Assembly: GCF_001752365.1 (NCBI RefSeq)
Contig: NZ_MEIY01000001.1
Coordinates: 2,348,473 to 2,412,472, forward strand
Direction: 5' to 3'
DNA: 64,000 nt
Source: Marinobacter sp. X15-166B
GTDB taxonomy: Bacteria; Pseudomonadota; Gammaproteobacteria; Pseudomonadales; Oleiphilaceae
The position numbers were made by a program, and so were the translations under genes. The notes below the pieces were generated by a model that saw only the letters and a list, made by a program, of their open reading frames with translations, ran no database searches and had not been told where the DNA came from. Shown here piece by piece: positions 35,537-37,703 of this stretch. Position 1 is the stretch's first letter, and every line of letters starts with the position of its first letter.

Positions 35537-36409
35537 GTGTATCGGGTCAAACAGATTGAAACGGGAGTGAACCTGGCCGGGTTCAGCCGGTGGCTGAGTC
35601 AGCAGGGGGTGGCACACCGCATCACTGTCGAAGGGAACTACCAGGTGCTGTGGCTGGAGCATGCCGACAACGCCGATCCGGTAACCGCGGCGCTGGAACG
35701 TTTCCTGGCGGAACCCGAACTGCGGGCCCGGGTGGAGGAGGTGGCTCATTCGCCGGTGTTTGTGGGGGGGCGCTGGCAGCCGGCCCCGAAGCATGCGCCG
35801 CTGGTGCTTGTTATAATCGCTCTGGCGGGGCTGCTCGCCTGGGTCACCGGGCTGGGCAGCAACATGGCGTCGGCGGCGCTGATGATGGTCGACCCCCGTT
35901 ATTATGACTGGAGCACACTGCCTGCAAGGATGACCGCACTGGCGGACACCCTGGCCCGGGGCCAGATCTGGCGTCTGTTGTCACCGGACTTTCTGCATTT
36001 CAGCATGGCCCACATCATTTTCAACAGTGTCATGCTGTGGTTTCTGGGCAGCCAGGTGGAGTGGTTCGATGGCAAAAGCCGGGTGCTGGTGTTGTTTGTG
36101 GTGACCAGCCTGCTCGCCAACGGCCTGCAGTATATGGTATCGGGGCCGCTGTTCGGGGGGCTGTCCGGGGTGGTTTATGGCTTGTTGGGTTATTGCTGGC
36201 TCAGTCAGCAGCGCCGGGCCCGGTTTCATTTTCCGCCGGCCCTGGTCATTTTCTCGGTAGTATGGATGGTCATCGGCTTTACGCCTTTGCCCGAGTGGCT
36301 GGGAATCGGCCGGATGGCCAACGAAGCGCACCTCGGTGGGTTTGTGGCTGGTCTGCTGGTGGCTGTCTTGTGGGCACCGTCAGCCAGACGGAGGGATGCA
36401 GGACCATAA
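35537..36409 (+). CDS. glpG: GlpG-type rhomboid intramembrane protease
   Basis: 290 residues starting at GTG, four bases after the phosphoesterase stop. A soluble N-terminal domain (about 1-80) like that of E. coli GlpG precedes six membrane helices. Catalytic Ser210 sits in GGLSGVVYG, catalytic His265 in NEAHLGG, and His159/Asn163 of the oxyanion site in MAHIIFNS. It cleaves membrane proteins within the lipid bilayer; natural substrates are unknown. The C-terminal end runs into the minus-strand terminator of the proposed small RNA. Confidence 0.92.
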   Translation: MYRVKQIETGVNLAGFSRWLSQQGVAHRITVEGNYQVLWLEHADNADPVTAALERFLAEPELRARVEEVAHSPVFVGGRWQPAPKHAPLVLVIIALAGLLAWVTGLGSNMASAALMMVDPRYYDWSTLPARMTALADTLARGQIWRLLSPDFLHFSMAHIIFNSVMLWFLGSQVEWFDGKSRVLVLFVVTSLLANGLQYMVSGPLFGGLSGVVYGLLGYCWLSQQRRARFHFPPALVIFSVVWMVIGFTPLPEWLGIGRMANEAHLGGFVAGLLVAVLWAPSARRRDAGP

Positions 36410-36433
36410 AAAAACCTCACCCGGAAGTGAGGC
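36408..36433 (-). terminator. Minus-strand rho-independent terminator
   Basis: Arms GCCTCAC / GTGAGGT with a six-base loop followed, on the minus strand, by seven T (36408-36414). On the plus strand no T tract follows, so it acts only for minus-strand transcripts, although no minus-strand gene lies in this region. Confidence 0.85.
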
Positions 36434-36498
36434 AAAAACAGGGCGTATACACGCCTGATGAGAGAGACCAAATGCTAACGACCGTTGTCATTTGGAGT
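36408..36498 (-). ncRNA. Candidate Fur-regulated small RNA (RyhB/PrrF-type layout)
   Basis: On the minus strand a promoter (TTGACC at 36527-36532, 18-bp spacer, TATCAT at 36503-36508) overlapping the Fur box predicts a start near 36495-36498. The following ~88-91 nt contain a 28-nt hairpin (36468-36495, arms CCAAATG / CATTTGG with inner AACG / CGTT), a U/C-rich unpaired stretch (UCUCUCUCAU), a second hairpin (CAGGCGU / ACGCCCUG), a U5 run, and a rho-independent terminator ending in seven U at 36408-36414. No minus-strand protein gene is present. This matches iron-responsive Hfq-dependent sRNAs in layout; homology to a named family is not claimed. Confidence 0.6.
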
Positions 36499-36501
36499 GG
36501 T

Positions 36502-36520
36502 AATGATAATTGTTATCATT
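36502..36520. promoter_or_regulatory. Fur box (ferric uptake regulator operator)
   Basis: AATGATAATTGTTATCATT: a perfect 8-bp inverted repeat with a 3-bp centre, matching the 7-1-7 consensus TGATAATnATTATCA at 14 of 15 positions. It covers the minus-strand -10 of the proposed sRNA and lies 65 bp upstream of the YeaC start, so it could control either or both. Confidence 0.85.
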
Positions 36521-36584
36521 TGTGGTGGTCAAGCCCTTTTGCCGGGTTTATTCAATCAATGTGAAAGCCAGACAGGAACATAGG

Positions 36585-36845
36585 ATGACGTACGAGGAAC
36601 TGATCAAACGCCTCGACCCAGCGGTGTACCAAAGCCTCCGCAGAGCGGTTGAGCTGGGCAAATGGCCGGACGGTCGGCAGATATCGGCGGAACAGCGGGC
36701 CATCTGTATGGAAGCCGTGATTTACTACGAGCAAGAACACAATGTTCCCGAAACCCAGCGTGTGGGTTACCTTGACCGTACCAAAAGTGACGGTTCCAGT
36801 TGCGGTCCGGACGACGATACCGCGCCCATTCGTATTTTGAGCTGA
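36585..36845 (+). CDS. YeaC/DUF1315-family protein
   Basis: 86-residue small cytosolic protein of the YeaC (DUF1315) family, recognised by LIKRLDPAVYQSL and ELGKWPDGRQISAEQ near the N-terminus; function unknown. AGGA seven to eight bases upstream supports the ATG at 36585; longer in-frame starts (to 36510) would overlap the Fur box and are not family-like. It sits between the rhomboid gene and a DUF2797 gene, the same order as in pseudomonads. Iron control through the upstream Fur box is possible. Confidence 0.87.
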   Translation: MTYEELIKRLDPAVYQSLRRAVELGKWPDGRQISAEQRAICMEAVIYYEQEHNVPETQRVGYLDRTKSDGSSCGPDDDTAPIRILS

Positions 36846-36857
36846 TGAGGGTTGACC

Positions 36858-37703
36858 TTGACTGCTGCTGTTGTTGATGTGTCCGGTCGGCTGACCAAAA
36901 TGCCGGTGCAGGCCGGCCACCCCGTGGATTACACCCTGAAGATTGGTGATACCCGGGTGCCGCTGAATGATCTGGTGGGCTACGCCCTGCAACTGGATTT
37001 TGAGGGGGCGATTCGCTGCGTCCACTGTGACCGAGTGACCAAAAAAAGTTTCAACCAGGGATATTGTTACCCGTGCTTTCGCAAGTTGGCGGCCTGTGAC
37101 TCCTGCATCATGAGTCCGGAAAAGTGTCATTACCACGAAGGTACCTGCCGCGAACCGGAGTGGGGCGAAACCCACTGCATGACGGAGCATGTCGTGTACC
37201 TGGCCAACTCGTCGGGGCTTAAGGTGGGAATTACCCGTGCCTCGCAAGTACCCACCCGCTGGATCGATCAGGGCGCGATTGCCGCCATTCCCATGCTGCG
37301 CGTGGCTACCCGGCAATTGTCCGGATTGGTGGAGGTGGCCTGTAAAGAATTTGTGGCCGATCGCACCAACTGGCGGGCGATGCTCCGGGGCGATGCCCCC
37401 GAACTGGATCTGGACGCTGAAAAAACCGCCTTGCTGGCGCGCATTCAGCCGCGGCTGGCGGAGCTGCGGCAGGCCTATGGTGACGACGCCATCCGCGAGG
37501 TGGACGAGGCCGGTTTAAGCCTCAGCTATCCGGTTGAGGTGTGGCCGGAGAAGGTCAGAACTCATAATCTGGACAAGACGCCGTCGGTGACCGGGGTGCT
37601 GCAGGGCATCAAGGGCCAGTATCTGCTGCTGGATACCGGCGTAATCAACATTCGTAAATACACCGCCTACCAGGTTCGCTTGCAGGTGTTTCCCTCGTCC
37701 TAG
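36858..37703 (+). CDS. DUF2797-family protein with Cys clusters and GIY-YIG-like segment
   Basis: About 281 residues. The N-terminal third has zinc-finger-like cysteines (CVHCDR, CYPCFRK, CDSC), followed by VYLANSSGLKVGITR...PTRWIDQGA, reminiscent of a GIY-YIG nuclease core although the canonical catalytic Arg/Glu pair was not confirmed. Function unknown. Initiation is at a TTG: the codon at 36858 is spaced six bases from GAGGG, while the TTG at 36852 is too close to it. Follows YeaC by 12 bases and precedes pepN, probably in one transcript. Confidence 0.85.
   Translation: MTAAVVDVSGRLTKMPVQAGHPVDYTLKIGDTRVPLNDLVGYALQLDFEGAIRCVHCDRVTKKSFNQGYCYPCFRKLAACDSCIMSPEKCHYHEGTCREPEWGETHCMTEHVVYLANSSGLKVGITRASQVPTRWIDQGAIAAIPMLRVATRQLSGLVEVACKEFVADRTNWRAMLRGDAPELDLDAEKTALLARIQPRLAELRQAYGDDAIREVDEAGLSLSYPVEVWPEKVRTHNLDKTPSVTGVLQGIKGQYLLLDTGVINIRKYTAYQVRLQVFPSS

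Follow-up and report, generated by a model that had tools for sequence, protein, structure and literature searches.

A candidate iron-responsive small RNA between glpG and yeaC in Marinobacter, very probably a distant cousin of PrrF

What does the minus strand encode in the gap between glpG and a yeaC-like gene of Marinobacter sp. X15-166B? In the stretch of 64,000 nucleotides of this genome that we analysed (the window), an earlier note, made from the letters alone, had proposed for this gap a Fur-controlled small RNA (sRNA) that spares iron in the manner of RyhB or PrrF. From the comparisons reported here we consider that the gap very probably holds a small RNA gene, on at low iron, which is a distant and hitherto unlabelled cousin of PrrF and is present Marinobacter-wide. 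The features of the locus, in window coordinates, are as follows.

35537 to 36409, plus strand: glpG (name from the earlier note), an open reading frame that flanks the sRNA tail to tail.
36408 to 36433, minus strand: intrinsic terminator GCCTCACTTCCGGGTGAGG followed by T7, after a U run (terminator search, covariation).
36439 to 36457, minus strand: second hairpin CAGGCGTGTATACGCCCTG (single-sequence fold, covariation).
36454 to 36467, minus strand: presumed target-pairing core UCUCUCUCAUCAGG, unpaired (fold, alignment to the UCUCCUCAUCAGGC region of PrrF).
36468 to 36495, minus strand: 5′ hairpin CCAAATG...CATTTGG, 28 nt (fold, consensus fold, alignment).
36408 to 36497, minus strand: predicted sRNA, about 88-90 nt, its start placed from the -10 hexamer and its end from the terminator.
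36503 to 36508, minus strand: -10 hexamer TATCAT, separated from the -35 hexamer by an 18-nt spacer (promoter search, alignment).
36502 to 36520, minus strand: predicted Fur box AATGATAACAATTATCATT, a symmetric 19-mer that overlies the promoter spacer and the -10 hexamer.
36527 to 36532, minus strand: -35 hexamer TTGACC (sigma-70 promoter search, 40-row alignment).
36585 to 36845, plus strand: yeaC-like gene (name from the earlier note), within the open reading frame 36510-36845, starting with MTYEELI, the flank that is divergent from the sRNA.

The minus-strand sigma-70 promoter that had been claimed was located as TTGACC and TATCAT separated by 18 nt, and it was the only sigma-70-like site in the 401 bases from 36300 to 36700, for which 50 shuffles gave 0.2 on average. 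Across 40 aligned rows the -35 hexamer reads TTGACA in 36, TTGACC in two, TTGAAC in one and TTGACT in one, the -10 hexamer is TATCAT in 33 and the spacer measures 18 nt in 38. The Fur box described over this promoter, with 14 agreeing bases out of 15, was reproduced if the free centre is counted: precisely, TGATAAcAATTATCA, at positions 36518-36504, has 13 of the 14 bases that are specified in the Fur consensus TGATAATnATTATCA, the one used for this 15-base comparison. The highest Fur 19-mer score of the 64-kb window, 16, falls here, at 36499-36517 on the plus strand; in 10 surrogates from a first-order Markov model, each scored on one strand, the maxima were 12-14. Alternative 19-mer frames of the box score 15 and 14 on the repeat consensus against 12 for the symmetric frame, hence the frame reported here is a choice made for symmetry; its 3′ end falls 1 nt beyond the -10 hexamer. 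As read from the letters, the overlap of box and promoter is that of the PrrF group. The placement also resembles that of the operators of SIPHT-predicted Fur-regulated sRNAs (Livny et al. 2008, PMC2527527), in the main text of which, out of 74 loci akin to known Fur-regulated sRNAs, 73 are reported to have a Fur box whose end lies 1 nt beyond the promoter; the same main text does not name Marinobacter, and an earlier prediction of this locus in the supplementary loci table is possible.

Downstream from the promoter, the predicted transcript folds into three hairpins with -27.8 kcal/mol (z -3.56), and none of 200 shuffles was equally stable. Where 0.3 terminator-like sites were expected, two were found, and both belong to the minus strand. 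The 28-nt hairpin, the unpaired UCUCUCUCAUCAGG, the second hairpin, the U run and the seven-U terminator, all part of the original description, were recovered at or near their proposed places. The final two U of the sRNA terminator fall within the glpG stop codon (36407-36409).

The earlier note had also held that no minus-strand protein gene exists here, and this stood: we found no conserved small reading frame, and the longer minus-strand reading frames in the list lie for the most part opposite glpG, yeaC or the gene that follows. We considered whether the unit could encode a small protein, as a dual-function RNA or a leader peptide, and rejected this reading as scarcely credible; the sole ATG considered, which lies within CCAAATG of hairpin 1, is present in 35 of 40 rows and missing in five, and indels in the loop shift the frame that follows it, so that its read-out varies widely among species.

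The distribution of the unit was obtained by a DNA search of 58 genomes, which found it in 36 of the 37 same-genus genomes, own included (the only miss, G033, is a genome 62% complete), and in none of the 21 genomes from other genera of the order. A scan of GTDB genomes for a 20-base stretch of the unit returned 83 stretches; among the matches listed (80 of 83), 78 have a Marinobacter title and one a Tamilnaduibacter title, the last being a MAG labelled Halomonas. Both glpG and yeaC flank the unit in all 39 loci considered, taken from 39 genomes, after leaving out L068 (a 31-nt partial match with no flanking genes found) and L002 (the same locus as L067). These loci were located through the unit itself, therefore a relative that keeps glpG-yeaC and lacks the unit could have appeared only as the miss in G033. 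Absence of the elements from such relatives, named in the earlier note as what would speak against the sRNA, was thus looked for in part, and no refutation emerged: the promoter, the Fur-box-like site and the core are kept in the 39 aligned loci. Of the 40 rows, 38 keep the core UCUCUCUCAUCAG unchanged and two carry a variant. Mean column identity is 0.854 in the promoter and Fur box and 0.864 in the transcript, and outside the unit it is 0.658 just upstream and 0.435 just past the terminator.

This pattern bears on another reading, by which the Fur box serves the divergent yeaC and the hairpins merely end the glpG transcript. The box does precede the start of yeaC (36585) by about 65 bases, and glpG does end at the hairpins. 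Against this, the sole promoter found in 36300-36700 and both terminators belong to the minus strand, and the whole transcript is conserved, including an unpaired core needless to either gene, so we regard such an arrangement as very improbable.

Most matching genomes (34 of 36) carry one place for the unit, and two places were found in G020 and G003. In G020 these are tandem sRNA copies 233 nt apart (L067, 1754-1844 and 1987-2077), each with a promoter and a Fur-box-like site. In G003 (contig C33) the second match (L068, 2020-1990) is 31 nt long and confined to the promoter and Fur-box part of the query, and it is possibly another Fur-controlled promoter.

The helices were examined across species on an alignment (A1) of 38 rows, 37 of them distinct, from which L009 and L021 were dropped since they have the same transcript as L010 and L019. 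The three-helix structure was taken from the single-sequence fold and the consensus of the aligned rows; in the case of the second hairpin, which is outside the RNAalifold consensus, the single fold was used. With this structure 95.6% of the cells pair and 9 of the 21 pairs have changes on both sides, all of them in hairpins 2 and 3; the covariation score was reached by none of 500 shuffles. Structures slid along the alignment pair in 37-51% of the cells, a comparison in which the true position is favoured because the structure derives partly from the same sequences. Hairpin 2 has both-side changes in four of its five pairs across relatives. In hairpin 3, the terminator, 98.9% of the cells are paired and five of eight pairs have both-side changes; in hairpin 1 the figure is 95.9%, with one-sided changes only and zero compensatory pairs.

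Is this unit related to a known family? At the gathering score, Rfam gave only a tRNA in the 64-kb window. In the 251 bases around the unit, RF00444 (PrrF) was the only family at E ≤ 10; it aligns to the unit end to end with 23.4 bits (E 0.047), the gathering cut-off being 90 bits, so that the unit is not a member of RF00444 as curated. At the same E ≤ 10 there was no match in the unit to RyhB, to whose model it therefore does not belong, nor to NrrF, provided that Rfam has such a family. In the loci of ten relatives RF00444 is the best-scoring family in each, at 27.5-44.5 bits, again under the cut-off; weak Rfam matches to PsrR1, ncS54, anti-hemB and GcvB score under PrrF in the same loci, and those to ncS54 and anti-hemB cover the 3′ part only, so these families were discarded.

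We also ran RF00444 on whole genomes of the order. It matched at this locus, with E ≤ 0.01, in seven of 12 same-genus genomes and in the sole other genus of the family (G222), while our own genome and four other same-genus genomes had no match at E ≤ 0.01. The genomes in which the model was placed at the locus are G014, G017, G319, G222, G002, G179, G006 and G001, and the best whole-genome E value at the Marinobacter locus is 4.8e-6. Over the 293 genomes of the order, 50 matched at E ≤ 0.01 and just 12 were above the cut-off. Arrays of RF00444 places occur in some genomes of the order, with five in G290 and three in G136.

For the reverse search we used a model (R1) built from the Marinobacter transcript alone, without promoter and Fur box, because the RF00444 model includes both, and ran it over the 293 genomes. 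R1 recovers the 13 genomes of the family of Marinobacter (f1) with E from 1.6e-23 to 2.6e-16, only three of which (G154, G261 and G281) are wholly outside A1. Outside this family it finds six places at E ≤ 1e-4, and five of them are loci above the RF00444 cut-off: two in G282, two in G320 and one in G242, with E from 9.7e-7 to 3.4e-5 per genome. From their PrrF scores, these three genomes are presumably Pseudomonas or close kin. Through R1 the profile similarity to PrrF is thus seen in the reverse direction too, and without help from the promoter. Run on 30 RF00444 sources (95,801 bases; two of the 30 cover one place, and L034 was left out), R1 matches 27 at E ≤ 0.01.

The sixth place (G224, L171, E 1.6e-5) is a terminator behind a reading frame, with no Fur box seen by eye, and two weaker matches (L174 and L175) are terminators just behind reading frames, likewise with no Fur box seen by eye. 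At E ≤ 0.05 R1 gives matches, many of them weak, across 102 of the 293 genomes; judging from the three inspected, we suspect that many of the weaker ones are plain terminators. At this threshold R1 matches at the PrrF place in only five of the 12 genomes, and seven of the 19 places, above the RF00444 cut-off.

These figures are those on which an independent origin has to be weighed, that is, a Fur-controlled sRNA which came to resemble PrrF and RyhB by convergence of promoter, pyrimidine-rich seed and terminator. Such an origin would fit a score under the RF00444 cut-off, the whole-genome scan in which R1 misses seven of the 12 genomes with PrrF above that cut-off, and the lack of either glpG or yeaC in the loci of about 3 kb around the PrrF-type places of other families. 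It accounts poorly for a promoter-free model that reaches PrrF loci at five of its six best places outside the family, and for the common order of 5′ hairpin, CUCAUCAGG core, U-rich linker and terminator. A link to PrrF through intermediate families is partly supplied by the RF00444 matches over the order and by the R1 matches to the RF00444 sources. We judge convergence unlikely, and prefer a divergent homologue to an unrelated analogue because the similarity to PrrF becomes clearer with the relatives and in the reverse search. For the same reasons the remark in the earlier note that no similarity to RyhB or PrrF was evident by eye proved wrong as regards PrrF, to which the similarity is weak when our own genome is taken alone. 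We conclude that the unit is a putative divergent PrrF homologue, outside RF00444 as curated.

Which mRNAs would a PrrF homologue with this core pair with? We fixed the target set beforehand from PrrF and RyhB targets, except for leuC, which was returned by the aconitase search. In our own genome, sodB has AUGAGAGA at its ribosome-binding site, with a Watson-Crick run of 8 nt to the core, acnB has CUGAUGAG, with a run of 8 nt (10 if G-U pairs are included), and sdhC has GAGAGAG, with a run of 7 nt. As background we considered 358 gene starts from 400 kb of the own genome plus the window, with crude calls favouring Shine-Dalgarno-like starts: three have a run of at least 8 (one of which is acnB) and nine a run of at least 7. 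Across species, each taken with its own sRNA, runs of at least 7 nt were found for sodB in 24 of 30, for sdhC in 19 of 29, for acnB in 12 of 13 and for leuC in 11 of 13; the sdhC counts are without G011 (start not found) and G026 (locus absent from the set), and G027 is without a sodB match. There was no consistent core site, with runs of at least 7 nt, in acnA (1/13) or bfr (1/13), both known candidates of the PrrF type, or in the Dps-type ferritin (0/7). Control starts were located in 3 of 30 loci for DUF2797, 25 of 30 for yeaC and 7 of 10 for the Dps-type ferritin.

The core was then compared with its own permutations. Of 400 permuted cores, those reaching the mean Watson-Crick run were one for sodB, five for sdhC, one for acnB and none for leuC; in the same test they were 390 for acnA, 22 for bfr and 68 for yeaC. 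Allowing G-U pairs, the counts per 400 became 15 (sodB), 136 (sdhC), 3 (acnB) and 1 (leuC). In these tests the permutation means refer to the first 13 species of a gene and the observed means to all species. By duplex energy, permuted cores as good as the real one were, per 300, two for acnB, three for leuC, 57 for sodB and 60 for sdhC, and in our own genome 17 of the 358 background genes reach the energy of sodB and 98 that of sdhC. A ranking by duplex energy was accordingly set aside as non-discriminating for sodB and sdhC. Only acnB and leuC stand out by energy, therefore we take acnB and, in relatives, leuC as the firmest of the candidate targets, with sodB next and sdhC weakest.

Some observations on single targets complete this picture. 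In the leuC leader (L264-L276), a complement of the core of at least 8 nt, mostly UGAGAGAGA, is present in 11 of 13 Marinobacter genomes and absent from our own species and from G006, which would make leuC a candidate target gained or lost between species. In G006 (L020) the core reads UUUCUCUCAUCAG, with a C to U change, and the sodB leader (L189) has a perfect 11-nt complement, GAGAGAAACCA; it is possible that core and leader have changed together in this genome. In G000, G020 and G030 the sodB leader is similar to that of G006 and the core has the usual sequence. At 36840-36860, in the start region of the gene after yeaC, which we take to be DUF2797-like, CUGAUGAGGGU is strongly complementary to the core and overlaps the yeaC stop codon; this site has the best duplex energy of the 358, and no such site stood out in the loci of the three relatives in which the start was found. 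Seven near-matches to the complement of the core elsewhere in our own genome were discarded, as they lie within reading frames or at unconvincing starts.

On this comparative evidence, which supports the Fur-controlled, iron-sparing sRNA of the RyhB or PrrF manner first proposed, we hold with high confidence that the locus encodes a Fur-repressed sRNA homologous to PrrF, predicted to spare iron by pairing with ribosome-binding sites. With ample iron, Fe-Fur bound to the box over the promoter would block transcription. When iron is scarce, repression would be lifted and an RNA of about 90 nt made, ending at the intrinsic terminator. Its U-rich 3′ end probably binds Hfq; our own genome has one hfq gene and two FUR-family genes. 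The unpaired UCUCUCUCAUCAGG would pair with purine-rich ribosome-binding sites in mRNAs that encode iron enzymes the cell can spare; as for PrrF and RyhB, this pairing may block translation or speed mRNA decay. The candidates here are the mRNAs for superoxide dismutase (sodB), aconitase B (acnB) and, as a weaker one, succinate dehydrogenase (sdhC), to which that for isopropylmalate dehydratase (leuC) may be added in most of the relatives tested, our own species excepted.

PrrF1 and PrrF2 of Pseudomonas have the same arrangement of a Fur box over a sigma-70 promoter, 5′ hairpin, unpaired core, U-rich linker and terminator, and their core UCUCCUCAUCAGG corresponds to UCUCUCUCAUCAGG of Marinobacter. 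Passages of PMC6321483 give as PrrF targets antR, sodB, PA4880, acnB, m-acnB and sdhD; since sodB, acnB and sdhD are among them, the role predicted here is the expected one. Passages of the review PMC4211561 describe PrrF for Pseudomonas species and state that the prrF1-prrF2 tandem of P. aeruginosa also gives a read-through RNA, PrrH. ArrF of Azotobacter vinelandii and NrrF of Neisseria, to which we liken the Marinobacter sRNA by their published description, are named in an excerpt of PMC2851614 as iron-repressed PrrF homologues, so PrrF-like RNAs beyond Pseudomonas are already known. Among the matches listed in the open-access literature, no paper deals with this RNA in Marinobacter; in the passages of PMC7857532, PMC11475020, PMC11277574 and PMC11705809 that mention the genus, it appears in references, in the name of a protein in the legend to an alignment and in a remark on biofilms, and the RNA described here does not appear. 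The candidate targets sodB, sdh and acnB are common to PrrF and the Marinobacter sRNA, and the tandem pair of P. aeruginosa is matched by the tandem copies in G020. The two differ in that the Marinobacter core enters the second hairpin, whereas PrrF has a UAAUCACGG stretch without that pairing, and in that the Marinobacter sRNA is sub-cut-off, fixed between glpG and yeaC and mostly at one place per genome. RyhB of enterobacteria and vibrios is alike in logic, as a Fur-repressed sRNA with a terminator and the mRNAs of iron enzymes as candidate targets.

Marinobacter are widespread marine and hydrocarbon-degrading bacteria that live with scarce iron, and the sRNA described here would give them an iron-sparing regulator with named, testable candidate targets. 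For one species, M. subterrani, a genetic system is described (PMC4503921). We lean, with some reserve, towards the view that PrrF is no speciality of Pseudomonas: it would be an ancient sRNA found through much of the order, where the strictness of the Rfam cut-off conceals it. Its Marinobacter form would be two-seeded, with UCUCUCU for the ribosome sites of sodB, sdhC and leuC and the adjoining CUCAUCAG for acnB, and species would have gained and lost target sites. In the order, annotation of the PrrF family looks incomplete. Our results suggest that the range of PrrF extends far outside Pseudomonas and that the Rfam cut-off hides many of its relatives, which genome annotation therefore misses.
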